Assembly: GCF_020923435.1 (NCBI RefSeq)
Contig: NZ_CP087263.1
Location: forward strand, 4,235,970 to 4,299,969
DNA length: 64,000 nt
DNA from: Brevibacillus humidisoli
GTDB taxonomy: Bacteria > Bacillota > Bacilli > Brevibacillales > Brevibacillaceae
Direction: 5' to 3'
In this document: piece after piece, positions 1-15,673 of the stretch
Layout of the letters: each line of letters opens with the position of its first letter
Position numbering within the stretch: position 1 is the first letter of the stretch
Notes under the pieces: model-generated
Seen by the model: the letters and a program-made list of their open reading frames with translations, nothing else
Told to the model about the DNA's origin: nothing
Databases searched by the model: none
Position numbers and translations under genes: made by a program

Positions 1-774
1 CTCGCACCAGTGAAGGGCTTGTTGATTGAGATCCTGTAAATCAACGAAGCGTTTGCCAGGAAGGAAGTTGTTTTTTACGTATTGAACGCCTCGTTCCACT
101 TTGCCCTTTGTTTCGGGGCGTCGAACTTTGCATACTTTTGGAACAAGCCCAATCGCCGCAGCAAAGTCGGCAAAAAGTGGATGCCAGCGGGGTTTTCGAT
201 CATCTCCCATGCCCAGTACGACTGTTTTCATCTGATCGGTCAGCATCACTTTGGGGATACCCCCAAAATATTCGAATGCGTGGATCAGGCAACGCAGAAA
301 GCTGTAAATGTCACAACGCTTGGTAAACTCGATATAGGTGGCACGAGAGTACCCCAATACCATGACAAATACCGGAACTTTCCGGACGTTACCGTCCTGA
401 TCTACATAATCACACAGTCCCCAGTCAACCTGGGCGTATTCACCTGGTTTCGTCTCATAACGAAGAACAGCGGGAACTTGTTTGGGAGGACGGAAGTCCT
501 TCACATAGTCTTTCAGGATGGTGCGCCCTCCGGTGTATCCCTTTTCTTGTAGAAGCTCGAATAAAACCTCACAGTTATAGATACCTTCTTGAAGCCGTTG
601 CTGCAGGAACGGTTTAAAAGGATCAAGCTTGGAACCACGAGGTTTACGGGTTCCTTTTTCGGGGGTGAATTCACCCCGGAGATATCGGCGAACGGTATTT
701 CGAGAATGCCCCGTCAGACGGGCAATTTCACGAATACTCTTGCCTTCTGCTCTCATGGTATGTAACGATATCAC
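1..774 (-). CDS. istA: IS21-family transposase IstA (left copy), truncated by window edge
   Basis: The minus strand is open from 774 to the window edge (258 codons, no stop). It encodes an IS21-type DDE transposase, which cuts and joins the element ends together with IstB. An N-terminal helix-turn-helix (REIARLTGHSRNTVRRYL) is followed by a catalytic-core start around QVDWGLCDY (first Asp), then MLTDQMKT (second Asp) and a KGKVERG motif (Glu). I chose the GTG at 774 because AAGGAG lies 7 nt upstream; an in-frame ATG at 792 has no such site. The 3' part and the partner istB lie beyond position 1. Sequence and orientation differ from the complete IS21 at 2887-5306, so this is a second, distinct element. 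Confidence 0.9.
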   Translation of the reverse strand, partial: MISLHTMRAEGKSIREIARLTGHSRNTVRRYLRGEFTPEKGTRKPRGSKLDPFKPFLQQRLQEGIYNCEVLFELLQEKGYTGGRTILKDYVKDFRPPKQVPAVLRYETKPGEYAQVDWGLCDYVDQDGNVRKVPVFVMVLGYSRATYIEFTKRCDIYSFLRCLIHAFEYFGGIPKVMLTDQMKTVVLGMGDDRKPRWHPLFADFAAAIGLVPKVCKVRRPETKGKVERGVQYVKNNFLPGKRFVDLQDLNQQALHWCE

Positions 775-904
775 TATCCCACTCCTTAGCATGTGTCTCC
801 CTCCGATCATTAACTTGGCCGTTAATACCGAAGGGGATATATTCGCTAAGGGTGGGTCATTTTCATTCCGGCGAAACTGGGTCAATTATATCCCGGCGGT
901 GACA
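775..904 (-). mobile_element. Terminal end of the left IS21-family element
   Basis: On the minus strand the segment starts TGTCACC at 904. It then carries two imperfect copies of a roughly 24-bp unit, each with GCCGG followed by TGACCCA. Repeated units next to the tip, and a tip beginning TGT, are typical of IS21-family ends. The istA start follows at 774. I place the outer boundary at 904. The other end is outside the window, so neither the inverted repeat pair nor a target duplication can be verified. Confidence 0.6.
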
Positions 905-1149
905 CCTCAACGCTTACCTGCCGACAAAACCGTTAAAAACCACAGTCAGAAACGACTGAAAACCGTTAAAAATCACCTCCAATTTTTTTATTCGATTTAC
1001 CATCCTAACGAAAAACCAGTGCAGACCAGCGTATCAGCGACTGCGGAAGAGGGAAGAAGGAAAAACCGTGAAATCATTCCCGCCGTTATAATGAGAATAG
1101 TGACCGATGCGTAAAAAACTCTGTCCGAGCTAAAATCTCTGAACATGCC

Positions 1150-1201
1150 AAAAAATAAAGGCAACCCGTAAGCAGTCTCTCTCGAACTGCTACAGGTTGC
1201 C
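1150..1201 (-). terminator. Intrinsic terminator of the candidate RNA
   Basis: Inverted repeat 1160-1201 (GGCAACC with AGCAGT pairing to ACTGCT with GGTTGCC). On the minus strand it is followed by TTTATTTTTTGG. The T-rich side is only on the minus strand, so it ends leftward transcription. Confidence 0.8.
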
Positions 1202-1680
1202 TATGCGAATGAATCTCTTAAAAATACGATACCCCTCAAAGGAAAAATAACTAGGTGCGGTTGAGCAACTCTAGCTAAATGCCGATAAAATGGATCAAAC
1301 TGCGCCAGACCGACTTATGGTCGCTTGTGATACCGATAGGTCGGAAAAAACCGCAATCTTGAACCCTCAAAACCAGTAGAGGGTGCGACTCCATATCAAG
1401 ACGGCGAGGACAGGCGCATCACGCCAACTGCACATCAAACTCAGACCAATAACGAGTGAGCCGAAAAACGAAAAGGAGGGGAGCAGAACAGGTGCGAGTG
1501 GCGGGAAAAGTCCAATAAGGAAAAGATTCCCTCATTGGACTCATCGCTCTGCTGACCTCATCTAACCGATCTTAATAAGCAATGTCGTCTCTGAACTTTT
1601 CTCATGTCCAATCTGATCAAACGTCTGGTACTTAATGTATTCGTTATCTCATTTCATGTCCTCAAATTATTTAATCTCAC
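1150..1680 (-). ncRNA. Candidate structured non-coding RNA (unrecognised family)
   Basis: No convincing ORF exists here on the minus strand, yet the segment is bounded by a promoter-like sequence (1686-1715) and a strong intrinsic terminator (1150-1201). That predicts a transcript of about 530 nt. Inside are nested inverted repeats. A composite arm pairs 1482-1487 with 1548-1553, 1494-1497 with 1544-1547, 1509-1516 with 1534-1541 and 1519-1522 with 1527-1530. Further hairpins pair 1310-1314 with 1340-1344 (extended by two inner 3-bp blocks), 1363-1368 with 1379-1384 and 1413-1416 with 1422-1425. I do not recognise it as tmRNA, RNase P, SRP, 6S, a group I or II intron core, or a tracrRNA. It could also be a long structured 3' UTR of the Dam-like gene. 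It is inferred, not demonstrated. Confidence 0.5.
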
Positions 1681-1685
1681 TGCAT

Positions 1686-1715
1686 ATTATAAAAAATATG
1701 CCCAGAACAACTCAA
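1686..1715 (-). promoter_or_regulatory. Sigma-A-like promoter driving the candidate RNA
   Basis: Minus-strand TTGAGT (1715-1710), an 18-nt spacer and a perfect TATAAT (1691-1686). It points away from the Dam-like gene and into the structured segment, with a predicted start near 1679. Confidence 0.55.
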
Positions 1716-1753
1716 TAAGCACAAAGCACATATCGGTGGTTTTTGGTGGTTTT

Positions 1754-1812
1754 GATGGTTTTACAGCTAGTCCATAGGTATTAGAAGCCACTCCATCGGT
1801 TTTAGAGCCAGT
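1754..1812. repeat. Three degenerate ~20-bp direct repeats
   Basis: Units at about 1754-1771, 1772-1792 and 1793-1812 share a GGT(T/A)TTA core followed by a G-C-rich GCC/AGC and end ACT/AGT. They lie between the stop of the Dam-like gene and the promoter at 1686-1715, where an operator would be expected. The function is unknown. Confidence 0.6.
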
Positions 1813-1818
1813 GAACCG

Positions 1819-2769
1819 CTAGACAGAACCATAATCAAACCAGCTGACCTGATCCTCTAAACTGGCAGGGATATCGAAGTTAATCCAGAGATATTCCTCA
1901 TTATAACGCCCGACTGATGCCGAACTGGAGACATAGAGTCTTCGCAAATACAACTTTCGCCATCCCGCCTCAACCAGTCGATCATAGATGAAACTATTGT
2001 AACCGCTGAGGGCAACTTTAGCCTGAATCCCCATTAACCTATCAACCAGCCGCTCATGATCTGCCATCGTCCAAGAGCGATCTCCATAGTGCTTATTTAT
2101 TATCGTACAATCCGGTGCATAAGGTGGATCAATATATGCAAAAGCCGAGCTACCCTCGGCAATCAAATCAAGCAATTCTATGACATCGCCATTAATAACC
2201 TGAACATCAGCTAATATCGGGTAGAAACGATCTAACTCCCTTACCCGTTTAAAATAACTTCGAAGCCGCCGCTTGTCTGACAACCTTGAAGAATCAAAAG
2301 TACTGGTCATGTCCGCCGCGCGTGACTGCATACACTGGATAAAGGTGAAAGCTGCTGATTCGACTCCTCCCAATCGATAGGAATGTCCCATCGAAATCAT
2401 ACGTGTCTCATATTCCAGCGCATGCCTCGCCCGAAGAAACACATCCTCACCGACTCCCAAATCCTCAAGCAACGCCATTAATTCATACACATCAGGTTTC
2501 ATACCCAAACAAGCGAAAAGATTACACAAGCCGAGATGGATCTCAGAGTAAACTCGATGCTTGAAAAGACTAACTGGCAAGTTTAAAAGCGTTCTCGCAC
2601 CACCACCGCAGGTTTCATAAAACGAATCCAAACTATATGTACGAGCGGCGTACTCTATTACCGCGATGATTTGTTCACACAAGGCGAATTTCCCGCCAAT
2701 ATAAGAAATAACCGAGCGAGGATGCCCGACGTCATACTTTATGGCATTTTCTCGTTTAGCTACGCTCAT
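1819..2769 (-). CDS. Orphan DNA adenine N6-methyltransferase, D12/Dam class
   Basis: 316 residues. SYIGGK at 22-27 matches the AdoMet-binding/motif X region of the D12 class. YETCGGG at 51-57 is motif I-like, and AYIDPPY (DPPY at 214-217) is catalytic motif IV of N6-adenine methyltransferases. It should transfer a methyl group from AdoMet to adenine N6 in duplex DNA. No cognate nuclease lies beside it, so it looks like an orphan or an element-borne methylase. The ATG at 2769 is preceded by AGGGGG at a good distance. Before the IS21 insertion it lay 16 nt after the stop of the gene now broken at 2786/5307, so the two were probably one transcript. Insertion has separated it from that upstream promoter. 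Recognition sequence unknown. Confidence 0.88.
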   Translation of the reverse strand: MSVAKRENAIKYDVGHPRSVISYIGGKFALCEQIIAVIEYAARTYSLDSFYETCGGGARTLLNLPVSLFKHRVYSEIHLGLCNLFACLGMKPDVYELMALLEDLGVGEDVFLRARHALEYETRMISMGHSYRLGGVESAAFTFIQCMQSRAADMTSTFDSSRLSDKRRLRSYFKRVRELDRFYPILADVQVINGDVIELLDLIAEGSSAFAYIDPPYAPDCTIINKHYGDRSWTMADHERLVDRLMGIQAKVALSGYNSFIYDRLVEAGWRKLYLRRLYVSSSASVGRYNEEYLWINFDIPASLEDQVSWFDYGSV

Positions 2770-2785
2770 AGAATCCCCCTAGAGC

Positions 2786-2886
2786 CTAAACTTTCCCCAG
2801 ATCATCTATTTTGAAGATATAGAACCGCTTAACCTCTTTGGAGCTAATGTTGGGCTTTATGGGCTCCTGTAAGCGAGCCTGATTAC
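2786..2886 (-). pseudogene. 3' fragment of the gene split by IS21
   Basis: Reading the minus strand from the target duplication (2886) downward gives an open frame of about 33 codons. It starts NQARLQEPIKPNI, ends FKIDDLGKV and stops at TAG (2788-2786), 16 nt before the ATG of the methyltransferase. It joins in frame to the 5' part at 5307-5943 when the IS and one copy of the 9-bp repeat are removed. The restored protein has 242 residues. The last residues (GLLLK to KRFYIFKID) loosely recall the winged-helix tails of DUF927-type helicase-like proteins, but that is only an impression. Confidence 0.8.
2878..2886. repeat. Target-site duplication, left copy
   Basis: CCTGATTAC, directly abutting the left tip of the IS21 element. 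The identical copy is at 5307-5315. Nine bases is slightly longer than the 4-8 bp usually quoted for the family. Confidence 0.88.
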
Positions 2887-3017
2887 TGTTTATGGCATGA
2901 TTTAAATGTACTAAATGGCAGCTAATTTATGCTCATATTAAAAAGAGCCACTTGCAACATCTATTAAAAAACATACACTCCCCGTTGGGCATAACGTTCA
3001 TGGGAGGTATATAGGAG

Positions 3018-4529
3018 ATGTTAGCAATGGCTGAAGTCAATTATATCAGACATGAAACAAACACAAAAGGTCGCTCCTACTCTTCTGTTGCAAGACAGAT
3101 GAATATGGATCGCAGGACAATCAAGAAGTATTCGGAGATGGAGGATTTCAATCAGGAGGTGAAGTCTGTACAGACAAGGAAAGCCAATGTAATGGATCCG
3201 GTTAAACCAATCGTTGATCAATGGCTACTTGAAGATATGGGGAAGAAAAAGAAGTTCAGAAGAACCGCAAAGCGAATCTATACTCTTCTCGTTTCGGAAC
3301 ATGGATTCCAAGGCTCTGACCGTACGATTCGTGCCTATGTGGCGAAAAGGAAAGCCGCCTTATTGGACGAGAGCAATGACACTGCCTTACCGTTAGAGGC
3401 GAAGGCCGGCACAGCACAGGTAGATTTTGGGGAAGCTCCTTTTAAGCACAGGGGAAAAGAGGTCATCTTGCCCTTCCTCGTCCTCTCATTCCCTTACAGC
3501 AATTCATTCCTGTTTCAAGTGTTCCCTTCCCAAAACCGGGAGTGTTTTCTACAAGGACTGACGAACATGTTCGCCTTTCTAGAAGGCGTGCCGCATACGA
3601 TCCGTTTCGATAACCTGTCACCTGCGGTGAAGAAAGTGCTGCCAAACGGGGAACGGCAAGTAACAGAGGAATTCGCTCGTTTTGTTGCCCATTATGGCTT
3701 CCAATATGAATTCTGCAATCCGGGAAGCGGAAACGAGAAAGGGCACGTGGAAGCAATGGTCAAATACATACGAAACAACTATCTGTTGCCGGAAATCCAC
3801 TATGAAGACCTGTCGGTCTTGAATGAGAAGACCCTGAATTGGAGCCTGGGGGATCGGAAACGTTGCCACTATGAAAAGGATACCCTGATTGCCGAACTAT
3901 ATTTGGAAGACAAGGAGCGCTTCCTCCAACTGCCCGGTAAAGCGTACGAATGCGTTCGGTTCGAGCAGGTCAAAGCGGATAAATACGGAATCGTCCGTAT
4001 TGACCAAAAGCAATATTCCACTTCGCCACGCTTTGCGGGACAAGCGGTATTGGCGAAGATCTCATTTGATACGATCTCGCTTCTGAACGAGGAAAATGAA
4101 GTGATCGTACGCCACCCCAGATTATATGGGGAGACAAAGAAGTCGATGGACTGGCAACCTTATCTGACCTTGATGGCAAAGAGGCCAACCGCTTTGAAAT
4201 ACAGCTCATTCTACGATCAATTGCCGGAGGAATGGAAAGCCTTTTTCGGTGAATGTACAGTCGAGGAGAAACGGAATGCTCTCCAACTTTTATCCGTCAT
4301 ATTAAAGGAACAGGATTTCGACATATCTCTACAAGCCCTACGGATTGCATCCGAACATGGACATCCTACCACGGAATCCATCAAGCACGTCTATTATCAG
4401 CTTGTGAATGGACGAGGCATTCGAGAAACACTGTCGCTTCCGCCTTCAGTGCCATCAACTAGAAATTCAAGCAGAGGCCTCTCTCATTATGATCGGTTGA
4501 TGATTATGCCAGGAGGTGAGCAGCGGTGA
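3018..4529 (+). CDS. istA: IS21-family transposase IstA
   Basis: 503 residues, full length for IstA. An N-terminal helix-turn-helix (SSVARQMNMDRRTIKKY, about 22-38) leads to an integrase-like core. AQVDFGEAPF gives Asp136, IRFDNLSP gives Asp198, and NEKGHVEAMV gives the catalytic Glu (E245). The C-terminal half is the usual basic Mu-like region. The ATG at 3018 follows AGGAG; a second ATG three codons on is an alternative. Its stop overlaps the istB GTG (4526-4529), so the two are translationally coupled. It catalyses strand transfer of the element at 2887-5306. Confidence 0.95.
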   Translation: MLAMAEVNYIRHETNTKGRSYSSVARQMNMDRRTIKKYSEMEDFNQEVKSVQTRKANVMDPVKPIVDQWLLEDMGKKKKFRRTAKRIYTLLVSEHGFQGSDRTIRAYVAKRKAALLDESNDTALPLEAKAGTAQVDFGEAPFKHRGKEVILPFLVLSFPYSNSFLFQVFPSQNRECFLQGLTNMFAFLEGVPHTIRFDNLSPAVKKVLPNGERQVTEEFARFVAHYGFQYEFCNPGSGNEKGHVEAMVKYIRNNYLLPEIHYEDLSVLNEKTLNWSLGDRKRCHYEKDTLIAELYLEDKERFLQLPGKAYECVRFEQVKADKYGIVRIDQKQYSTSPRFAGQAVLAKISFDTISLLNEENEVIVRHPRLYGETKKSMDWQPYLTLMAKRPTALKYSSFYDQLPEEWKAFFGECTVEEKRNALQLLSVILKEQDFDISLQALRIASEHGHPTTESIKHVYYQLVNGRGIRETLSLPPSVPSTRNSSRGLSHYDRLMIMPGGEQR

Positions 4530-5242
4530 GAAGCCTCATTGAAGAGCATGCCAAGCGTTTGAAATTAAGTTGGATACGGGAGAATTATCACGCGGTGGAA
4601 GCTGAAACACATGAAGAATTTCTGCTCTGCTTATTCGAAAGGGAAATACAGCAACGAGAGGAACGGAAGCTCAATCTCCTTCTCAGTCAATCCTGTTTGC
4701 CGGATATATCTGGCAAGCAGCTAGAATGGCACGGTATTCATATGAATGGAAACATTACAAAGGAAGAAATCTTGCAAGGCAGGTTCATAGAGAGAAAAGA
4801 GAATTTAATCCTATATGGAGGCGTCGGGGTCGGGAAAACGCTTATGGCAGCCTTGGCAGGCTGGAACTGCATCCAAAAAAGCCAAAAACGGGTGCGCTTC
4901 TATACAGTCGCTCAACTCGTGAACAGCCTGTTAGAGGTTAACGAGAAGGGAACTCTTGGTAGGCTGTTTAAACAAATAGAGAGCCTGGATCTATTAATTC
5001 TTGATGAATTAGGCTATGTACCCCTTCACAAGCAAGGAGCAGAGTTACTGTTTCAAGTGATCAATCTGTGTTATGAAAAGCGTAGTGTCATCATAACCAA
5101 CTTACAGTTCGGCCAATGGAATCACGTTTTTGGCGATCCAATACTGACGGAAGCATTCATTGATCGTCTCATTCACTATTCGCATTTGATTGTTTTTAAT
5201 CGTGATAGTTTTCGTCATAAGGATTCACTGATGAATCGATGA
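4526..5242 (+). CDS. istB: IS21-family AAA+ ATPase IstB
   Basis: 238 residues. The Walker A motif is GGVGVGKT (98-105) and the Walker B motif is LLILDELGY (from 156), with the DnaC/DnaA-like AAA+ fold expected for IstB. IstB selects target DNA and activates IstA. GTG start at 4526 with AGGAGG about 9 nt upstream, overlapping the istA stop. The stop is followed by about 60 bp of terminal repeats up to the element tip at 5306. Confidence 0.95.
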   Translation: MRSLIEEHAKRLKLSWIRENYHAVEAETHEEFLLCLFEREIQQREERKLNLLLSQSCLPDISGKQLEWHGIHMNGNITKEEILQGRFIERKENLILYGGVGVGKTLMAALAGWNCIQKSQKRVRFYTVAQLVNSLLEVNEKGTLGRLFKQIESLDLLILDELGYVPLHKQGAELLFQVINLCYEKRSVIITNLQFGQWNHVFGDPILTEAFIDRLIHYSHLIVFNRDSFRHKDSLMNR

Positions 5243-5943
5243 TACCCTGGTTGGCAAGTGTGCATTTTTAATTGCCAAGCGGTACATTTTCTACTTGCCA
5301 AATACACCTGATTACTTCGCTTTAAAAGAAGCCCCTGCTCCAGCCACCCCCGAGCGATCTCCTTAAAACGAGCATCCCTGGTACCACCATCCAGATCAAG
5401 TATCTCTAACAAAGCCTCTGTAGTGATTCCAACGGCATTCTCTCCATACTTTTCTGCATATTGTTCGGAATCAAGAATAACCCCCGAACTAACACCATTT
5501 TTATACGCATCCGATGAGACTGTCGGGAAAGCATCAGGTTCGGACAAAACTGCATCAGCAACCAAGCTGAACAACTCCAAACTCTCATCTGCACCAGCAG
5601 AGCCTTCCATCTCCGACAGCAAGTTTGGCACTCTCCTGAAAATACCGTTTATTTTAAGGTACTTCACATAATCGATAGTTTGATGTAGCTCCACCTTCTC
5701 CATACTCCCAAAAACATTCAGATCTCTGAGAAATTCATCGAACCTATCCCTCAAATCGATGACCAAGAAACACTTCGATGCATGACCCTCTAACTTCGTG
5801 GTAAACTTCACTGCATACGTATTCTCCGTATATGCCGGATGTTTCCCGTATAATAATTCAACCTCCCACAAAGCCTCAACCGGATTCGCCATTTCGCTGA
5901 CCTGTTCAGCTATATTCTTCCGCTCCTTTACCAACTGTAACAC
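5215..5943 (-). pseudogene. 5' part of unknown gene, disrupted by IS21 insertion
   Basis: GTG start at 5943 with GAGGAG upstream. Residues 1-212 are native. From 5306 on the frame runs into IS21 sequence and adds 30 foreign residues (VYLASRKCTAW...ESL) before stopping at 5215. Joining 5307 to 2877 restores a 242-residue protein, coincidentally the same length as the fusion. I do not recognise the family. It is acidic, with no membrane segment, and contains EVELLYGKHPAYTENTYAVK and a C-terminal RFKEIARGWLEQGLLLK stretch that resembles a winged helix. It sat directly upstream of the Dam-like gene, which suggests a shared role. Whether the 30-residue tail swap leaves any function is unknown. Confidence 0.75.
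5307..5315. repeat. Target-site duplication, right copy
   Basis: CCTGATTAC, directly abutting the right tip of the IS21 element. It is identical to 2878-2886. Confidence 0.88.
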
Positions 5944-6428
5944 AGAGACCGCTCCTCTCTTTTAAAAAAGTACTCCTCAAGGGAAGTTGACATATTGTGA
6001 CAATCTCTAAGACCATTCTATCAAAAAGCAGGTGATCTGAACATCCTGACAACAAACACTCCAGAGTAAAGAAAAACGACTCAACAATTCTGAGCCGTCC
6101 ATCTTACCAACTAAGTATAGACCTATAAAGTCAATATTAAATTCGAATAAATCCGTCAAAAAACATCCTGAAAATAAAGCAAAACTGGAGGGGTAAAGTA
6201 CCAACTGTAACGGATCAACTCCATGAAAATATGATAAACTGCCGTAAACACGACGATTTTTGAGTGAAAGGAATATCCGAAGAAGAAATATACTAACGGA
6301 AGGACAATAAGTCGGAGTTTACAACAAATACTTTTACATATAATGCTATTTTATGTATTATTAACCTATGGTGGGTGTAAAATTCGCTAACATGGTAGTG
6401 CAGAAGGAAAAGTTATTAAATAATAAAT
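5944..6428. other. Gene-free stretch upstream of the split gene
   Basis: AT-rich. It should hold the promoter of the minus-strand split gene and methyltransferase pair, but I could not fix a confident -35/-10 pair. The only open frames are short, lack ribosome binding sites and look like chance. An imperfect hairpin (ACG.CTCA/TGAG.CGT) sits near 6085-6110. Confidence 0.4.
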
Positions 6429-6477
6429 GTGAGAGATAGGGCTATTTCCTACGAGTGAACTTAGCCCTATCTCTCAC
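6429..6477 (-). terminator. Long perfect hairpin after vsr
   Basis: A 16-bp perfect stem (6429-6444 with 6462-6477, beginning GTGAGAGATAGGGCTA). On the minus strand it is followed by an A/T-rich run (ATTTATTATTTAATAAC). It lies 35 nt after the vsr stop and is the likely terminator of the restriction-modification operon. Confidence 0.65.
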
Positions 6478-6511
6478 TGGTGCCTCGGAACATATAATCT
6501 TCAAAACTTAT

Positions 6512-6925
6512 TTATAATTCGAGAAACCTTAGGAGTCGTGACATAGTTTCGTGCAGGTTTTTCTTTTTTAACTCGCACTCCCATATTCGCACGACAGTCC
6601 AGCCACGCGCTTCAAATCTATCTGTGATTTTTTTGTCATGCAAAATGTTACGTTCACGCTTCTTATCCCAATAATCAGCATTTTCTTTTGGGCGTGTATT
6701 ACGACAATTGTGACCGTGCCAAAAGCAACCATCAACAAAAATTGCAACCCGTTTTTTAAGGAACACAAAATCGGGATGCCCCTTTACAGGGTAGTTGCGG
6801 CGCCATCCTGTAATTCCATATTCCGTAAACAAGTTAATCAAACGTAGCTCTGTTGATTTGTTGCCTTTCGACCTCACCCTTTGCATCACAGAAGAGCGAG
6901 TCTCCTTGTCATACACATCTGCCAT
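6512..6925 (-). CDS. vsr: Very short patch repair endonuclease Vsr
   Basis: 137 residues, normal length for Vsr. It nicks next to T:G mismatches that arise when 5-methylcytosine deaminates. Expected residues are present: Glu26 (KSTELRL), the active-site Asp52 (KGHPDFVF), FVDGCFWHGHNC (63-74, with Trp69, His70 and His72) and Asp97 (NILHDKK). It fits its neighbours, because two 5-methylcytosine methyltransferases are encoded upstream in the same run. The ATG at 6925 has GAGGAG 9 nt upstream, placed over the stop of the preceding gene (6-nt gap), so it is co-translated with it. Confidence 0.95.
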   Translation of the reverse strand: MADVYDKETRSSVMQRVRSKGNKSTELRLINLFTEYGITGWRRNYPVKGHPDFVFLKKRVAIFVDGCFWHGHNCRNTRPKENADYWDKKRERNILHDKKITDRFEARGWTVVRIWECELKKKNLHETMSRLLRFLEL

Positions 6926-6931
6926 AGCCGG

Positions 6932-9900
6932 TCACTCCTCTTGGGCTCCACCTGCAGAAGGTATTAAAAGTGGATATTCGCCCTCAATGACATCATGCAT
7001 GACTACATCAATTTCCCCGACTAAAGAGATATATTCTACCAACTTATTGATTAAGTTTAGCAAATCGATAACATCATCGCGTGAAAAGACACAATGGGTA
7101 AAGTCGTATGAATTGAACTTCATCCAGACATTTTTAATGATATCATAACCTGCGATATTGATGCGTTGAACATCAAGAGGACATGGAATCTCTATTTTTA
7201 TTGTTCCGTCGGAAAGTATGAGAGTCTCGTGCTCTTCGTCAAAGGGCTGATCGATAAGCTTCAACTTGAAACCTTCTGGAATCTCTGCTTGGATAGCTGC
7301 AACATCAAAGCCCATACGGTTTGCGGGGATGTAGTCTCGCTTTTCAAGTTCTGCCACTCTTCGTCCAAGCGAACTTATGTGACGGAATACATCCGCATTA
7401 TTTACAATCGGAATGCGCGGCCGCATATCAGCGCGATTTACGGTAAACAAAGCACCTTCGAATTCGTCTAAATATACCTGCGAACAAAGAACAGCAAACG
7501 TATAGAACACCACTTCTGTCGCGACAACATCAGTTGGGACTTCTAATAATTGAGATAAGGTAGCGCACAGGTCAGCATGAATATTGTTGCCGATAACTCT
7601 ATTCCGAGTGCCTTTCACAGGATACTGATTAAGATAAATGTAAGAGTTGCCTCTTCGGCATAAATCATTATCAGGATAATACCAACAAAAAGAAGCAAAT
7701 TGCTTAAGCATATCTTTTTGGTCCTTAGGCGAATGAGAAAGCGCAAATCCGATAGTTCCCTCGGCATTGAACGCCGCGCTGATTTCTGGGCGTCTTCGTG
7801 TTCCACCGCCCCCAACTCGGCTAAATCGGTGTAATAGATCCTGCCAGAGAAATGCCTTCATGGGCAAAAATGGTCTGAATGCATAATCGACAATGTTGGT
7901 ATCAAGTAAAGTGTCAACGGCTCGCACATTACCGTAAGAAGCCAATTGCTCGGCAAAGAAATTTGTCTCCACAACTTTTGGTGGTTTGTCTTGATTTGCC
8001 ATCCATTCTTCCGCAGCGGATTCCCTTAGTTGCATAATTTCCTTGCTACGCCGCTTAAGCATAGGTGCTTTCATATGCGTGAAGATACTCGTTGGAGCCA
8101 ATTTTATACCAGAACAATATTGCTGAAAAATCGCGATCTCATCTGCTTCGCTACTCACAGGCCAATATGATGAATAAAGCTCTTGATTAAAAGGTATCGA
8201 TGGACAGAGGCCATAGTTAGCCTCGTCGATATCATGTTCCGTAAACATCTCGATCATATTTTCAGCACTCTGCTTAAGTATTTCTGTTTTTTCTGCTTTT
8301 GCACTGCGGGAGAGATCGAAATACATATATTTGGTCATTCCAACGGCTTCTCCATAACGGCGTGTTGCAAAAAGTATAGCCCGCCCTTGTTGGGTATTAA
8401 ACAAGCTGTCGGATCGAATACCGGCTCTTGCGTCGGCATCTACCGATACGAGCCACACACTGGAAAAGTGTTCAACAATGTACTTTCTTGCAAACTTGTA
8501 TGAATCGGCTTCGAGAAAACTGGATGGCACGATCAACGCCAAAAAGGAATGATTCTGAGACGCTTCTAGTTTTTCACAAGCCCAACGCAAGAATTGTAAG
8601 TACGGATTGTTAATTTGTTTTTGAGTATTCTGGCGAATACGACGGTTTTGAACAGGTGGTCTAAAATCATCCATGAGATCCAGGATTACCGAAAAATCAT
8701 CACCTGCGTTAATCTTCGATGAATCTGAAGATGGAGGATTTCCAATAACAAGAGTTATCGGTCTTGAAGCAATTTCATAAGCTCTATTTAACTCATATCC
8801 CTCGACCGTATGGGTATTTGCAGGAATGCCAAAAAGATAGTTGCTTAGTGTGTTTGCTAATAACAATTCATTCTGGGAACGCGCTTCATTAATCTCTGTG
8901 TTAAGCATTGCCATTCGATAATTAGCAAGCATATATGGGGCGGGTAATATTTCAATACCACATAACAAGTACGCCCCTCTTTGTACATCGTTTCTTCTTA
9001 TGCTTTCGAGAAACGATCCCGTTCCGCAACATGGGTCAATAATTGTGTTCCCGTCTGAAAAGATACTGTTTCCATCAAAAGTGCGCCTTGCGATAATTTC
9101 AGTTAATCTAACTATAAAATCAGCTAACTCGATGGGAGTATAAAAAGCACCATAATCGAAACGCGAACGAGCATCAAATTTAGATAAAAAGAGTTCAAAC
9201 AGTTTATGATAATCAGGATGCTGCCGCTGTTGCTCGGTCATGTGAACGAACGATAAGAAACTTATACACTCATCAGTCCATGTGTGTATAAAACTACTTT
9301 CGTTACCAGGACTGTTTAAATAATGAATAATAGTAAGAAACGGACGAAGGGCTTGTCCTTCGACAATTTCTCGCGACAGGTACTCCCTAATTTTTCTTTC
9401 CTTTTCTACTGCAGAATCAGCATCAGTACATTCAACCCGATGTGCAAATAAAATCGTAAACATTATAACTTGCGCTGCAAAATCTGCGAACACACGGTCT
9501 TCACGCATATTCTGATCGTTATGGTTATATACCAGTTCTTTCAATTCGTCTAATAAAACGATTGCGTTTCTCTCTTCATCATCCATTGCCTCGTCTAACG
9601 GGATGGCAGAATAACGAAGTATTTCATCAGACAGATTGCGCGTTCTGAGCGCTACTTGCTCTACCAATGTCCCTTCGTCGTAATATTGAGGCGACGGATC
9701 AGAAAAGAATCTATGCATCATGTGCTCAAACTGTGGATTTGGAGTAAGGCGAGACCAATCGGGCCGATTCATTAGTGCTTTATCAATCAACGAAACGACT
9801 TGTGGTTTCTTTCCATCAGTAAATGAGTAAACAAAGTCTATACCATCAGTGATTATAAGCTTGTGTCCCAAGGAAAGATAACGATTAAATTGCTCTTCAT

Positions 9901-10198
9901 ACGGAGTAATATCAAAAGAGTTCTGGCTCAAGCCTTTGGCTTCAATATAACCGTATACACCCAAAGTATTCCTGTCATGCATACGCCAATCAGGTCTACC
10001 CATACGAGCTTGATTTTTTGGTTCGAGTACGACAACGATATTCGGGTTACCGTTAAGCTCGACAGCCAGCTCTCTAAACATAGTATCCAAAGGAGGTCTG
10101 AAGGAAAGCTCCGCAGTGTGTTGATTACCTGCCAGAGCGTCTCGGTATTCCTGCTGAAGGCTTGTTAAATATTTTCTAATGATTGCCTGATAGGACAA
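6932..10198 (-). CDS. Large restriction-modification protein: PD-(D/E)XK-like nuclease plus N6-methyltransferase domain
   Basis: 1088 residues. The N-terminus has a PD-(D/E)XK-like pattern: RPDW (Asp70) then YIEAKG (Glu86, Lys88). A helical linker is followed by the N6-methyltransferase core: YGAFYTP (349-355), motif I DPCCGTGSF (388-396) and motif IV LVIGNPPSS (NPPS 487-490). The remaining 550 residues would hold target recognition. The architecture is that of single-chain type IIG/ISP-like enzymes without a helicase. Motif IV has Ser where the family normally has Tyr/Phe/Trp, so methyl transfer may be weak or absent. The start appears to be a TTG at 10198, overlapping the upstream methyltransferase by 23 nt; its ribosome binding site is weak. 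It is probably the endonuclease of a system protected by the two cytosine methyltransferases. Confidence 0.8.
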   Translation of the reverse strand: MSYQAIIRKYLTSLQQEYRDALAGNQHTAELSFRPPLDTMFRELAVELNGNPNIVVVLEPKNQARMGRPDWRMHDRNTLGVYGYIEAKGLSQNSFDITPYEEQFNRYLSLGHKLIITDGIDFVYSFTDGKKPQVVSLIDKALMNRPDWSRLTPNPQFEHMMHRFFSDPSPQYYDEGTLVEQVALRTRNLSDEILRYSAIPLDEAMDDEERNAIVLLDELKELVYNHNDQNMREDRVFADFAAQVIMFTILFAHRVECTDADSAVEKERKIREYLSREIVEGQALRPFLTIIHYLNSPGNESSFIHTWTDECISFLSFVHMTEQQRQHPDYHKLFELFLSKFDARSRFDYGAFYTPIELADFIVRLTEIIARRTFDGNSIFSDGNTIIDPCCGTGSFLESIRRNDVQRGAYLLCGIEILPAPYMLANYRMAMLNTEINEARSQNELLLANTLSNYLFGIPANTHTVEGYELNRAYEIASRPITLVIGNPPSSDSSKINAGDDFSVILDLMDDFRPPVQNRRIRQNTQKQINNPYLQFLRWACEKLEASQNHSFLALIVPSSFLEADSYKFARKYIVEHFSSVWLVSVDADARAGIRSDSLFNTQQGRAILFATRRYGEAVGMTKYMYFDLSRSAKAEKTEILKQSAENMIEMFTEHDIDEANYGLCPSIPFNQELYSSYWPVSSEADEIAIFQQYCSGIKLAPTSIFTHMKAPMLKRRSKEIMQLRESAAEEWMANQDKPPKVVETNFFAEQLASYGNVRAVDTLLDTNIVDYAFRPFLPMKAFLWQDLLHRFSRVGGGGTRRRPEISAAFNAEGTIGFALSHSPKDQKDMLKQFASFCWYYPDNDLCRRGNSYIYLNQYPVKGTRNRVIGNNIHADLCATLSQLLEVPTDVVATEVVFYTFAVLCSQVYLDEFEGALFTVNRADMRPRIPIVNNADVFRHISSLGRRVAELEKRDYIPANRMGFDVAAIQAEIPEGFKLKLIDQPFDEEHETLILSDGTIKIEIPCPLDVQRINIAGYDIIKNVWMKFNSYDFTHCVFSRDDVIDLLNLINKLVEYISLVGEIDVVMHDVIEGEYPLLIPSAGGAQEE

Positions 10199-11252
10199 AA
10201 TCTTTCACTTCTTTTCTAAGGTAATATTCGATTATGCTCTCACCAATAATTTTCCCCAGTTTCGGAGGGACGGCGTTTCCTATCTGTCGAGCAACTTCAA
10301 CTTTTGAACCCGAGAACACAAAGTCGAGTGGAAAAGTTTGCAATAATGCTCCTTCGCAAAGCGATATGCTCCTCAATTGTTCAGGGTGGCCAAACATTCC
10401 ACGTGTGAAACTATCAAAACGTGCTGTAATAGTAGGTGCTACATCATCCCACGACATTCTACCGTATACATTGCGATGACCAATAATTGCGCTATCTATC
10501 TTATGACAATCTGCCAGTAACTCAACGGGGAGATGGTCGCGCCCCTGACCTTGTTTCAACGCCATAAGCCGTTTAATATTTTTATCGGACAGCCGATCTC
10601 TTCTGTGAAGAGGGTACTCCGGATGTGAGGTTCCGTCCTCTGGAGGCTCCGGTAGGAACTCTATTGTTTCGCGTACTGTTTGGCGTTCGCCCGTCGGTTT
10701 TGGAAAAGTATATTCAGAGCCTATATCCTTTCTTTCTCCGACCAAAATAATGCGCTTCCTGCGTTGCGGAATACCATAGTCTTCTGCATTTATAAGTTGC
10801 TTATGTACAACATAGCCAATAGCCTCCATGTTGCTTATCAAATCAAAAAGGATCGTTTTACCACGTTTGCCTTGTATGCCTGATACATTCTCCATTACGA
10901 AGAACATCGGTCGAACCTCGTCTATAAGGCTTCCGTATTGAAGAACAAGATCATTTCTGCTGTCAACATCTTCACCGATACGCTGTACTGAAAACCCTTG
11001 ACAAGGCGGCCCACCGGCAAGAAGGAATAGTTCCCCTTGTTTTAACCCAATATCATTAAGTAGCCGTCCTCCAAGCATATTTCTAATGTCTTCACACAAA
11101 GCAGGATGTGAAAAGTACTTTTTATTGTTATTGATTGTCTCAATACATTTCGGATCAATGTCAAAACTAAGTAACACTTCAAGTCCAGCCTCTTGAAGAC
11201 CTAACGATAAACCTCCCGCGCCTGAAAAGCTATCAACACAAGTTAACCGCAT
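10176..11252 (-). CDS. DNA (cytosine-5) methyltransferase 2
   Basis: 358 residues from the ATG at 11252, chosen because AGGAGG lies 7 nt upstream; the longer frame to 11291 lacks such a site. Classic C5-methyltransferase motifs in order: I (DSFSGAGGLSLGL, 7-19), IV (GPPCQGFS, catalytic Cys84), VI (ENVSG, 121-125), VIII (QRRKRI), and X (QIGNAVPPKL). It overlaps the end of the upstream methyltransferase by 20 nt and the start of the nuclease gene by 23 nt, showing tight coupling. It is clearly diverged from its neighbour at 11233-12555, so the two probably methylate different strands or sequences. Confidence 0.95.
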   Translation of the reverse strand: MRLTCVDSFSGAGGLSLGLQEAGLEVLLSFDIDPKCIETINNNKKYFSHPALCEDIRNMLGGRLLNDIGLKQGELFLLAGGPPCQGFSVQRIGEDVDSRNDLVLQYGSLIDEVRPMFFVMENVSGIQGKRGKTILFDLISNMEAIGYVVHKQLINAEDYGIPQRRKRIILVGERKDIGSEYTFPKPTGERQTVRETIEFLPEPPEDGTSHPEYPLHRRDRLSDKNIKRLMALKQGQGRDHLPVELLADCHKIDSAIIGHRNVYGRMSWDDVAPTITARFDSFTRGMFGHPEQLRSISLCEGALLQTFPLDFVFSGSKVEVARQIGNAVPPKLGKIIGESIIEYYLRKEVKDFVLSGNH

Positions 11253-12555
11253 TTTTGAACCTCCTTGTGCTTTTAATGCCTGCGATAACACTTGAGTATG
11301 AATTGCTCACCGGCAAGTCTACAGCTTGAATACCCGCACTTAATTGTGCTTCCGATGGTTCGCAAGAAAGAAGTTCTATTAATACGCTTGACGCAATACC
11401 GCATGACAATAGGGGTGGTACGGCTTCTCCAATTTGACGGTAAATGTCATCAAATTTTCCTTCAAATGCAAATCCATCAGGGAAACTCTGTAAACGCGCA
11501 GCCTCTCTTGCAGTAAGTCCTCTATCTTGTACAGGATGCGTAAATCGTCCACTCGCAGGATTCCGGGCGTAATGTGTTATTGTAATAGAAGGTTTGTCCC
11601 AACTAAGTCTTCCATAAACATCTGAAAAGCCATTAACCCGAGTCAAGCACTCGGGGCCAACTCCTTCAGGTAATTTACCGCCGTCATGAGGGACTTGTCT
11701 AATTACTTCGAGAGTACTTGGCTTGTGAGCCACCGCTTTATGCATCCAATCTTCAGTTGAAGCCTCACCCGCGGCAAGTGGACTTAAAGAACCAATAGCA
11801 TCTCTAACAGTTCTATATTTATCCGGTGTATAGACACCTTCTGGTAACAGGAACTCCTTTTTCATACCAATAATAACCGAGCGAAAGCGTTCCTGTGGCA
11901 CTCCAAACTCGGCGGCATTATAAATGTGTTGCTTTACTATATAACCTGCATTGAAAAAAGCTGTCCTAGCTTTACTGAAATATTTCCAATACTTATTAGA
12001 TAAAAATTCAGGGACATTCTCCATGATGAAGACAGTAGGATTCACTTCTGAAACGATACGAGAAAATGCTATCACAAGGTTGTTTCTTTCATCATCTTCT
12101 TCATCCCATCGTTTTTTCCTATGAGAGGAAAATCCTTGACAAGGAGCACAGCCAATCAGGACTGTTGGGAGTTTCGAGTCAAAATTGATGCTCTCCAGAA
12201 AACTCTTAATGCTCTCCCTATCTTGGGATATCTTTAAGATATCATTATTTAACAATGGAGTCCCAAAGTTTTTACTATATGTAGCCGCAGATATAGAATT
12301 AATATCGCATCCTCCTAGGAAACGAAAAACTGGGAAGATGCGATTTATTGCGGCAAAGCCAAGAGAGGTTCCTCCCGCACCACTAAAGAAGTCAAGCACT
12401 TGAATAGGGTTACCGGCTGTCTCTCCAATATTCAACGGCTCAAACGAAAGCAACGCATTTTCGGATGCGGTGAATAAAGCAGACTTGTATTCTCTGTAAT
12501 CATTAATACCAATAGCGTTAGTAGTCACACTTTCAAGTAACTCTTGTAATTTCAT
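11233..12555 (-). CDS. DNA (cytosine-5) methyltransferase 1
   Basis: 440 residues. C5-methyltransferase motifs: I (LDFFSGAGGTSLGF from 54), IV (GCAPCQGFSS, catalytic Cys139), VI (MENVPEF, 178-184), VIII (PQERFRSV), IX (LTAREAARLQSFPD), X (QIGEAVPPLL). About 50 extra N-terminal residues precede motif I. The ATG at 12555 has GAGGTG upstream. It heads the methyltransferase part of the operon, 56 nt after the HTH gene. Two tandem C5 enzymes are common where the recognition site is asymmetric. The target is not predictable from sequence alone. Confidence 0.95.
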   Translation of the reverse strand: MKLQELLESVTTNAIGINDYREYKSALFTASENALLSFEPLNIGETAGNPIQVLDFFSGAGGTSLGFAAINRIFPVFRFLGGCDINSISAATYSKNFGTPLLNNDILKISQDRESIKSFLESINFDSKLPTVLIGCAPCQGFSSHRKKRWDEEDDERNNLVIAFSRIVSEVNPTVFIMENVPEFLSNKYWKYFSKARTAFFNAGYIVKQHIYNAAEFGVPQERFRSVIIGMKKEFLLPEGVYTPDKYRTVRDAIGSLSPLAAGEASTEDWMHKAVAHKPSTLEVIRQVPHDGGKLPEGVGPECLTRVNGFSDVYGRLSWDKPSITITHYARNPASGRFTHPVQDRGLTAREAARLQSFPDGFAFEGKFDDIYRQIGEAVPPLLSCGIASSVLIELLSCEPSEAQLSAGIQAVDLPVSNSYSSVIAGIKSTRRFKNAVNLC

Positions 12556-12611
12556 TCTTTCACCTCAAAAACTCAATTATTCATGATGTAAAGTATACAT
12601 AATCAAGACAA

Positions 12612-12800
12612 TTAGTCCAAAGCACTTTTACCGCTCTTTACCCATTCGTCTATTTCAGACAGCTTGAATTTCCACAACTTGCCGATCTTGCAAGCAGGAA
12701 TTGACTGTTTCTTTATCCAGTTACGCACAGTATCCTTGTTGACTCCAAGATACTCTGCCACTTCTTCGAGGCTTGACCATCTTTCATTAGTACTATCCAT
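12612..12800 (-). CDS. Small helix-turn-helix DNA-binding protein (excisionase/MerR-type fold)
   Basis: 62 residues, nearly all one winged-helix domain: WSSLEEVAEYLGVNKDTVRNWIKK is the helix-turn-helix, followed by IPACKIGKLWKFKLSEIDEWV (wing and last helix). This is the HTH_17/excisionase-like fold. The ATG at 12800 has GAAGGAG upstream. Its position as first gene of the restriction-modification operon suggests that it controls expression of the methyltransferase and nuclease genes. That role is inferred from position only. It could instead be a leftover excisionase of a mobile element. Confidence 0.8.
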   Translation of the reverse strand: MDSTNERWSSLEEVAEYLGVNKDTVRNWIKKQSIPACKIGKLWKFKLSEIDEWVKSGKSALD

Positions 12801-12839
12801 TCTAAGGCTCCTTCAGATCGAAGAATATAGTTTCTATTT

Positions 12840-12868
12840 ATTATATAAGATACCAAGTAGAATTGTAA
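12840..12868 (-). promoter_or_regulatory. Probable promoter of the restriction-modification operon
   Basis: Minus-strand TATAAT (12845-12840), 17 nt after a poor -35 TTACAA (12868-12863), 40 nt upstream of the HTH start. The weak -35 would suit a regulated promoter. Confidence 0.45.
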
Positions 12869-13129
12869 TTGTTTTGCCTAAAATAAAATGCATTGATCTG
12901 TTTTAATATGATTTGATATGAAAGAGTATGTGTGGCTGCACTTAAATAGAAATAACCCGCTCTTGTGAACGGGTTCAGTAAGGGGACAAAAGATTTGAAC
13001 TCATCAAAAATTGAGCAAAATTACACGTCCAAGTTATTCTTATAGCGACATCAATTATTACACACTCCGCATGCACCATATGGTTACAAAAAATCAAGGG
13101 CATTCTTTAACTCATATGGAACAAAGATA
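12869..13129. other. Intergenic region between DUF262 gene and HTH gene
   Basis: Holds a 6-bp hairpin (12954-12959 with 12970-12975, AACCCG/CGGGTT). On the minus strand it is followed by ATTTCTATTT, so it may terminate the DUF262 gene that stops at 13130. The rest is AT-rich with no supported gene. Confidence 0.45.
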
Positions 13130-14821
13130 TCACCCTAACAACTCACGTATCTTTTCTGCAAGCATTGTTTTTCTTGCCTCATAAAACTCTTCGAAGTCTT
13201 CAATTTCAAGTGAAAATTCTTGCGGAATCATAGCCTGTTTACAAAATTCTACTTTTTGTTCATCGTTCATATCATTGTAATAATCAACGAGTCGCATATC
13301 ATTTTTACTGCCATTACTTCTACCTTCAAGCAGATGTAGATTAGGTAGACGATTACGCATACCACGCCATCTTCGCCAATCTTCTACAGAAACAGAAAAA
13401 GGTTTGCTTTCGTTGAATCTGTTATCCGGATGAAGATGATCTTGTTCATATTTAAAGTTTTTATTTGTCCAATCAAGATTCAAGTAGTATAAAACCTCTC
13501 CGGCAACTCTGCTGCCTTTTTCGGAGTTGAGTACATCTTCAATTTTACCATCTGTGACTCTCAAATCATTCATCTGGTCAAGCATTTCAATTGTAATTTC
13601 ATAGTCAAAACTATTAATGTTACTCTTCATCTGTTGTAGCTTACTTGTAGTACCTGATTGGAAATAAGTAAAGAATATCGCCCTAAGTAAATAAGCTCGA
13701 ACACCCTTGATGTTTTTATCGTAATCAGGATTATAGTAAATATAATAGATAATCGGCAACAGCACGTTCCAACTACTTGAGAAACGGCTTACATCAATTT
13801 TCATTTTTATCAGTAGACTTTCCAAATTTGTCAGTGCTTTCTTGAAACCACTCCAATCATTTTTTAAGTCCTCTGCAATTTTTTTGTTAATAGTGGATTT
13901 TACAACATCACCATACAGCATCAAAGCCGAACGGATAATAAAGTCCGTACCGAATCCTGCATACGAGTCAACGAGAATTTTCCCAAACTCCGTTTTTGCA
14001 CTTGGCCAGTATGCCTCAAGAATTGACATCGTTATTTCGGATTTTCGCAGTGCTTTACCGCCACTATTAAATCTTACAAACATCTCAAGAGCATCATCTT
14101 GTTTCATGTCTGTAATCTCTGTATATCTAACGAGTTTTTCGACAAAAATCTTTTTATACAACTTCAGCAGAATGTTTCTTGCGTAATCCTTGCTATCTGC
14201 CGGAACATTCACGATGGCATCTTCAATTGCTTTTTCTCTTGTGGTTTCATCTTGGAATTTCTTATCAAGGATGTTTTTTATCTCAAACTGGGTTGGGCTC
14301 AATCTTCCAACCTTTTCACTAAACTTAATATCGAATTTTTTACTGTTATATTCTTCTTCATCGACAGATATCTTATTCTTGTTCAGTTCTATAAGTAATT
14401 TGGTTACAATCTTATCCCCGGTCTTTTTTCTGGCGTAATTCGGTCGTATGTATGCTTCCCCGAACAACGACAAATACAGTGATGTTAGCCTTTGCTGTCC
14501 ATCCAATACCGCTGTATCGGTATTCTTAACATTTATGCTTGTCAACTCATAATTAACGCTGTCAGCCTGTTTTCTGCTATCAAAAGTAACCTCTAACAAA
14601 AATCCGCAAAAGTAGGTATCCCATGTCACATTGGAGTCATCAACGTGCCAGAATAGAAATGTCGCAATAGGATAATCCAGCAAAATGGAATCCCATAGTT
14701 TTTCAATTTGCTCCATACCCCATACAAATTGTCTTTGAAACGCAGGCATTACATATTTTTCGTCTTTGATGTTTTGTAAAGCCTCGTATATTGTTATGCT
14801 GTTATCTATTAATTTGCTCAT
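13130..14821 (-). CDS. DUF262/HNH protein, GmrSD-like (putative type IV restriction)
   Basis: 563 residues. N-terminal DUF262 (ParB-like nucleotide-binding) signature: MPAFQRQFVW (25-34) and DGQQRLTSLYL (107-117). The C-terminus has a DUF1524-type HNH nuclease signature: YEQDHLHPDNRF (about 458-469), then NRLPNLHLLEG and SKNDM. This domain order is that of fused GmrS-GmrD enzymes, which cut DNA with modified bases, although many DUF262 proteins have untested targets. The ATG at 14821 is the only reasonable start. It stands alone, 330 bp upstream of the restriction-modification operon, in the same orientation. It is a plausible anti-phage gene of the island; specificity unknown. Confidence 0.85.
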   Translation of the reverse strand: MSKLIDNSITIYEALQNIKDEKYVMPAFQRQFVWGMEQIEKLWDSILLDYPIATFLFWHVDDSNVTWDTYFCGFLLEVTFDSRKQADSVNYELTSINVKNTDTAVLDGQQRLTSLYLSLFGEAYIRPNYARKKTGDKIVTKLLIELNKNKISVDEEEYNSKKFDIKFSEKVGRLSPTQFEIKNILDKKFQDETTREKAIEDAIVNVPADSKDYARNILLKLYKKIFVEKLVRYTEITDMKQDDALEMFVRFNSGGKALRKSEITMSILEAYWPSAKTEFGKILVDSYAGFGTDFIIRSALMLYGDVVKSTINKKIAEDLKNDWSGFKKALTNLESLLIKMKIDVSRFSSSWNVLLPIIYYIYYNPDYDKNIKGVRAYLLRAIFFTYFQSGTTSKLQQMKSNINSFDYEITIEMLDQMNDLRVTDGKIEDVLNSEKGSRVAGEVLYYLNLDWTNKNFKYEQDHLHPDNRFNESKPFSVSVEDWRRWRGMRNRLPNLHLLEGRSNGSKNDMRLVDYYNDMNDEQKVEFCKQAMIPQEFSLEIEDFEEFYEARKTMLAEKIRELLG

Positions 14822-15193: not shown

Positions 15194-15673
15194 CTACCGA
15201 TGATACGGTTCCCCCCGACTAATCCTAAACCCCCGATACACCTGCTCCAACAAAACCAACCGCATCAACTGATGCGGAAACGTCATCTTCGAAAACGACA
15301 GCGCCGCATTGGCCCGCTGCAGCACCTCCTCCGACAGCCCCAGCGAACCCCCGATCACAAATGCAATCTGACTTTTCCCCTGCAACGCCAGTCTATCCAG
15401 CTCGCTAGACAACTTCTCCGACGACCACATCTGGCCCTCGATGGCGAGGGCGATCACGTATTGATCCGGTTTGATCTGGGCGAGGATGCGCTCGCCTTCT
15501 TTTTGCTTGATCTGCTCCATTTCGGTTGGACTTAGATTCTCCGGCGCCTTTTCGTCCGCTACCTCGACGATCTGCAGTTTGCAGTAGGCAGAGAGCCGCT
15601 TGCTATACTCGCTGATTCCTTCTTTCAGATACTTTTCCTTCAGCTTCCCGACAGCGATAATCGCGATCTGCAC
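15194..15673 (-). CDS. rlmH: 23S rRNA (pseudouridine-1915-N3)-methyltransferase RlmH
   Basis: 159 residues, full family length with the conserved end ISRGEPYHR. This SPOUT-fold enzyme methylates pseudouridine 1915 of 23S rRNA in the 70S ribosome. The AdoMet knot is visible as [13 protein letters not shown], and [24 protein letters not shown] is the diagnostic C-terminal block. GTG start at 15673 with AAGGAG 9 nt upstream. It follows the CxxH/CxxC gene by 3 nt. Its 3' end is the insertion site of SCC elements in staphylococci, and here a defence island starts directly after it. Confidence 0.97.

Follow-up and report, generated by a model that had tools for sequence, protein, structure and literature searches.

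A hairpin-rich spacer behind a D12 methyltransferase gene in Brevibacillus humidisoli as probable transcription punctuation

Positions 1150-1715 of a 64,000-nt window of the Brevibacillus humidisoli genome (the whole stretch of DNA analysed here, to which all coordinates refer unless marked otherwise) are best read as the trailer and transcription punctuation that follow the operon of F3 and the methyltransferase in an SCC-like island, a reading that we put slightly above even odds (roughly 0.55). The earlier note on this DNA had proposed a new structured RNA with its own promoter and terminator; because no related copy of such an RNA was found, we take the stretch to be probably ordinary punctuation. 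Polymerase leaving the methyltransferase gene, or starting at 1715-1686, would be stopped at the terminator at 1203-1148, ahead of the island's next operon, which would since have been cut away by IS21; the product, if any, would be a 3′ trailer or a short by-product without conserved function. The arrangement resembles bacterial operon terminators and 3′ trailers in having a strong hairpin with a T-rich tail 3′ of a gene on the same strand; unlike usual operon 3′ trailers, the spacer adds a promoter-like site and a second, composite hairpin in between. A lineage-specific RNA on either strand is less likely; no homologue was found with which covariation could be compared. We regard the case as a cautionary one, in that a spacer with promoter, hairpins and terminator is not thereby an RNA gene when homologues are lacking, and consider the by-product of the analysis, the F3-D12 gene pair, weightier than the spacer feature itself.

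Promoter-like site, hairpins and terminator of the spacer

Table 1. Features of the spacer and its surroundings in the window.
Feature	Positions	Strand	Evidence or remarks
Second IS21-family element, start of istA (istA 1-885)	1..904	minus	terminus at about 904 by eye; runs off the window
Noncoding spacer	905..1818	no strand	from D12 methyltransferase stop to left IS21 terminus
Intrinsic terminator	about 1148..1203	minus	strong stem, then TTATTTTTT; z -5.67 (fold of 1146-1210); strict hairpin scan
Best-folding core: outer stem, inner stem, two hairpins	1253..1438	plus	z -3.57 plus, -0.83 minus
Hairpin A, composite, four-block	1474..1566	minus	z -5.93 minus, -2.73 plus
Sigma-70 promoter-like site, TTGAGT-N18-TATAAT	1686..1715	minus	10/12 matches
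AAAACC-rich motif	1736..1815	minus	immediately 3′ of methyltransferase stop
D12-class N6-adenine DNA methyltransferase	1819..2769	minus	Pfam MethyltransfD12, E 2.9e-7
F3, C-terminal piece, far side of IS21 insertion	2792..2887	minus	tblastn with L010 F3: 78% over 32 aa, E 6.6e-15
IS21-family istA + istB, inserted in F3	3018..5242	plus	
F3, first part of partner gene	5215..5943	minus	no known domain; IS21-cut, frame ends in IS21 letters
RlmH-type gene	15194-15673		Pfam SPOUT_MTase, E 6.6e-63

The stretch lies, as the earlier note had placed it, between the methyltransferase and an IS21 element, with a split gene nearby that is cut by another IS21 (Table 1). Its description as about 530 nt without an ORF holds for long frames, and frames of up to 60 aa are present: the longest wholly within 1150-1715 lie at 1383-1565 on the plus strand (60 aa) and at 1419-1544 on the minus strand (41 aa), and its ends are crossed by a plus-strand frame at 1604-1777 (57 aa) and a minus-strand frame at 997-1164 (55 aa). 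A Pfam scan of three of these four small ORFs returned nothing at cut-off, with a weak match of one small spacer ORF to DUF6684 (E 0.13).

The promoter-like site, the four-block composite arm (hairpin A) and the T-tailed terminator of the proposal are all present on the minus strand. The terminator is an intrinsic one by test, a stable stem being followed by a T-rich tract, and about 320 nt separate it from hairpin A, which sits 255-347 nt 3′ of the methyltransferase stop and has a weak T tail (TTTTCCC, after the inner stem). The promoter-like site lies about 105 nt 3′ of the same stop. Sites with at least 10/12 matches number 18 on both strands of the 64 kb as against 9, 7, 11, 9 and 14 in five shuffles; the site alone is within chance level, and the terminator and hairpin A are beyond it. 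Folded as a whole, the 544-nt region has a z of -3.65 on the minus strand. Its middle 270 nt (1211-1480) have a z of just -0.63 on this strand, with 49 of 200 shuffles folding equally well, and -2.60 on the plus strand; accordingly, the minus-strand excess of the whole region comes from the two end hairpins, and the claim of an RNA folded over some 530 nt is not confirmed on the strand for which it was made.

The earlier proposal amounts to a separate minus-strand RNA, noncoding and about 530 nt long, that starts at 1715-1686 and ends with the terminator at 1148; it would act in trans for the island. We consider it unlikely: a promoter-like site and a terminator that face the same way and enclose no long ORF, together with the z of the whole region, speak for it, but the middle has no fold of its own on that strand, a promoter match of such quality is about as frequent in shuffles, no homologue was found, and no counterpart was detectable in the 14 further loci that carry this gene pair (see below). 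Punctuation, by comparison, is favoured by end hairpins that go far beyond their shuffles and a minus-strand middle that does not. Several features argue against punctuation too: the hairpins are separated from the methyltransferase by a good promoter-like site, two strong hairpins (that of A with its poor T tail) exceed what one operon end needs, and the plus-strand z of the core is something that trailer DNA could dispense with.

That core (1253-1438) has a minimum-free-energy structure near-identical to its centroid. Since its limits were picked after the fold had been seen, and since z < -3.5 is reached by 1.4% of 426 regularly spaced 180-nt window-strands of the 64 kb, its plus-strand z is suggestive only. 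As single-stranded DNA it gave no strong sign (z -1.92 and -1.71). In scans of the plus strand, 844-3254 was free of promoter-like sites and 540-2859 of terminator-like ones; the first promoter-like site met upstream is at 815-843, within IS21. A structured plus-strand RNA exerting antisense control over the minus-strand transcript, in the manner of plasmid counter-transcripts, has the better plus-strand fold of the core and its near-identical centroid in its favour; we nevertheless think it improbable, in view of the missing plus-strand signals, the post hoc limits with their background of about 1.4% of placements reaching z -3.5, and the lack of a homologue. The repR gene of pIP501 is an example of an antisense-controlled plasmid leader. 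The spacer is like it in having a candidate structured RNA opposite a minus-strand transcript with a terminator; unlike it, the spacer has no recognised replication gene, no nearby plus-strand promoter-like site and no antiterminator pairing. The more specific idea that a new RNA of about 1253-1438, placed between the two minus-strand hairpins, is a lineage-specific counter-transcript silencing the island's next operon is likewise a long shot.

Next to the methyltransferase stop, 27 nt of the AAAACC-rich motif match the L010 locus at the equivalent place; the repeat count of the motif is no higher than in shuffles. An inverted repeat (925-943/1736-1754) was considered as an invertible switch and set aside, its arms being just 84% complementary.

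Searches for relatives and the spacers of related loci

The covariance search against Rfam that had been proposed gave no match at gathering score over the whole 64 kb (Rfam 15), in agreement with the earlier remark that no known RNA family fits; a lenient scan of 900-3000 yielded snoZ103 (E 2.2) and DicF (E 4.6), both far under their cut-offs. No known RNA family turned up in the spacer in any of the Rfam scans, one of which took in seven of the related loci. By blastn, the stretch was confined to its own genome within the genus (three genomes, the two others lacking it) and had no match among plasmids and phages. Across 398 genomes of the class, matches beyond its own genome were short and near chance level: with two candidates scored per genome, 60 of the 398 (own included) matched at a per-genome E of 0.1, about 40 being expected, and the best foreign match was 28 nt long (E 2.1e-4).

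We further built a covariance model, R1, on the single sequence of the plus-strand core. It recovered itself and one match at E 1.4 in 16 sources, nothing in the 14 other methyltransferase loci, and nothing better than E 0.3 in four loci searched without filters. Among 149 genomes it retrieved itself, G038 (E 0.0066) and G073 (E 0.29); the G038 match falls inside a 277-aa ORF carrying LSGGEQQRVALARAL, which we take to be an ABC-ATPase signature, and we read it as chance for that reason. Two exact patterns were absent from the viral contigs searched. With no homologue by blastn, Rfam, one-sequence covariance model or exact pattern, the suggestion of a new RNA family finds no backing in these searches.

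We then compared the spacer with those of the other methyltransferase loci (15 loci from whole-genome searches, the window included; the other 14 are L010-L014 and L049-L057). When both strands of the spacer were compared by blastn with the 1.6 kb 3′ of the methyltransferase in the 14 loci, L010 alone matched, at E 0.005 over 27 nt and at E 0.21 over 14 nt; another blastn against the related loci gave matches of 27 and 14 nt in L010 and one of 21 nt in L013, at E 0.015 to 0.65. The earlier note had also offered the RNA as one component of a two-component system, the methyltransferase and the split gene being the rest; with no counterpart detected in 14 of 14 other loci that carry the pair, beyond these 27 and 14 nt in L010, this reading is not supported.

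A strict scan of the first 350 nt 3′ of the methyltransferase stop found terminators in 7/15 loci, as compared to 9/90 shuffles and 3/15 on the opposite strand; the window's own match in this range is unconvincing, being part of the hairpin A loop, which leaves six of the 14 others. (An initial scan, with 12/15 loci against 45/60 shuffles, had no power and was not used.) In L010, the nearest locus by methyltransferase identity, the terminator lies about 220-290 nt 3′ of the stop. In the two alignable pairs, L012/L014 and L055/L056, 44 window-strand tests of the consensus fold gave z < -3 four times, each time at a place that overlaps the hairpin 3′ of the methyltransferase. The conserved folds of these pairs and the terminators of the six loci are in favour of punctuation, as are the F3-D12 pair in all 15 loci and the position of the L010 terminator when set beside that of hairpin A; against it stand the eight of 14 other loci in which the strict scan found no terminator within 350 nt. 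Promoter-like sites of 10/12 within 700 nt occur in three of the 14 other loci, and L010 is without one.

Single-sequence sliding folds of 12 spacers gave scattered values of z < -3 on both strands. A purine-rich block on the opposite strand is common to eight relatives; we rejected it as a homologous antisense RNA, as an alignment of the eight sequences yields no consensus pair, and its likeness by eye to window 1300-1345 was not upheld by R1. Iteron-like repeats exceeded the shuffle maximum only in L052 and L053 among the 12 spacers tested, the window and L010 staying within it. The L053 spacer (9320 onwards) has eight ATTTGTAAA-like words at a spacing of about 21 bp, with two runs of three, against a shuffle maximum of 4; these are possible iterons.

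A gene occupies the place of the spacer in L010 (193 aa) and in L052 (family F7), the latter with a weak HNH_3 match (E 4.5e-5, slightly under cut-off) and the former recognisable as HNH by eye only, without a family match. In both loci F4, F9 and a small and a large serine recombinase come after the F3-methyltransferase pair on the same strand. The minus-strand transcript might on this pattern be the leader of such a next operon (the gene at the HNH place, F4, F9 and the recombinases), which in the window would have been cut by IS21, with the terminator at 1148 as its attenuator. This is a doubtful alternative, because neither terminator arm shows a preference for the leader (shuffled leaders paired as well in 158 and 55 of 200 cases) and neither L010 nor L052 has a counterpart. 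A decayed protein gene, such as the one found at this place in L010 and L052, is very improbable, tblastn of the ORFs of the 15 related stretches against the spacer giving nothing below E 0.002 (the best being 0.002) and the tested small frames having no Pfam match at cut-off.

The F3-methyltransferase pair and the island around it

The methyltransferase loci were gathered from overlapping genome sets with different thresholds: 3/39 order genomes (E 1e-10), 6/398 class genomes (1e-20), 1/15 (1e-20), 1/6 and 2/59 (1e-30) and 7/392 (1e-40). The resulting 15 loci, which leave out weaker matches and distant plasmid and phage records, span seven families of the class, that of the window counted, and their methyltransferases, whose alignment includes DPPY, are 33-57% identical to that of the window (highest L010, 57%, and L049, 56%). 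By tblastn the methyltransferase also matched 94 plasmid and 17 phage records, all at less than 60% identity; a locus search recovered none from the single protein and one locus from the alignment, and the alignment had no match in viral contigs.

F3 stands directly upstream of the methyltransferase on the same strand in 15/15 loci (a count that includes the IS21-interrupted F3 of the window, a short F3 in L011 and a methyltransferase interrupted by N in L014), which makes the two a real gene pair. The view that the methyltransferase and the split gene belong together is supported. The description of the methyltransferase as an orphan fails in that this partner is present in every locus, and applies to the window insofar as F3 is there broken. 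Judged by these comparisons, the pair is conserved across the family, its partner being disrupted by IS21 in the window. Tested F3 members had no match in Pfam, PADLOC, PHROGs or NCBIfam; an F3 profile touched pentatricopeptide repeats (E as low as 3.2e-7, no stretch passing by itself) and, over 40 positions, a 'pathogenicity island protein' of the PDB (E 0.0029), and in a phylum sample F3 was found in 1/159 genomes, namely its own. Present in seven families and mostly close to serine recombinases, the F3-D12 pair may form a modification or defence module of an unknown kind.

The element-linked setting suspected in the earlier note is borne out by CcrB-like recombinases, the RlmH-type gene, which we presume to be rlmH, and the IS21 copies. 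The genes to the left of the window include one for a CcrB-like recombinase of 555 aa, a second, cut CcrB-like one, those for a D5_N/DUF5906 protein and a small serine recombinase, and F9 with its C-terminal part only; the CcrB-like matches (E 1.1e-129 for L015 2259-3926 and 1.2e-36 for the cut copy at L015 15174) are both under the NCBIfam equivalog cut-off. A degenerate copy of the last 18 bases of the RlmH-type gene (15/18) is found at window coordinate -12919, which is moderate evidence, as another match of 14/18 occurs in the scan. An SCC-like island of about 28 kb is possible between the end of the RlmH-type gene and this repeat, and the surroundings as a whole look like such an island at the RlmH-type gene, broken by IS21 and decaying. 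From the gene order we infer that part of the following operon was removed by IS21 copies and that one segment was inverted. Elsewhere, F9 was found in four of 378 genomes, G175 being the new one; L012 starts with a tmRNA end, and L014 holds an RlmH-type gene.

Among known systems, SCC-type islands come close to this one; in Bacillota, islands that carry large serine recombinases are described at rlmH and at ssrA (PMC10061031). The present one is like the SCC-type islands described there in its RlmH-type gene, CcrB-like recombinases, degenerate end repeat and, in L012, the tmRNA end; as far as that description goes, it is unlike them in its cargo of F3, D12 methyltransferase, F4 and F9, and in that its recombinases are under equivalog cut-offs, its end repeat is weak and it is broken by IS21.

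Several further observations concern the same surroundings. L014 has a second, divergent RlmH-like gene (4531-4932; SPOUT_MTase, E 2.4e-24) beside the first, and L012 an RlmH-like fragment under cut-off (250-465; E 5.7e-5). In L015 12873-15845, two different IS21 elements flank an F9 fragment, a small recombinase and the cut CcrB-like gene, whose order is inverted relative to L010 and L052. The D5_N/DUF5906 gene and a CcrB-like gene stand immediately outside the putative ~28-kb island, as in tandem islands. Within the window, a near-perfect inverted repeat (GAGATAGGGCTA...TAGCCCTATCTC, by eye) occupies 6429-6478 between a Vsr gene and F3, and the 180-nt window at 6301 has a z of -6.0 on the minus strand (the minimum of the sample) and -4.5 on the plus strand. 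Positions 6512-14821 make up a defence cluster near the RlmH-type gene, with a Vsr endonuclease, a restriction-methyltransferase resembling type ISP/IIG, two type II cytosine methyltransferases and a protein that matches PADLOC HEC-05.
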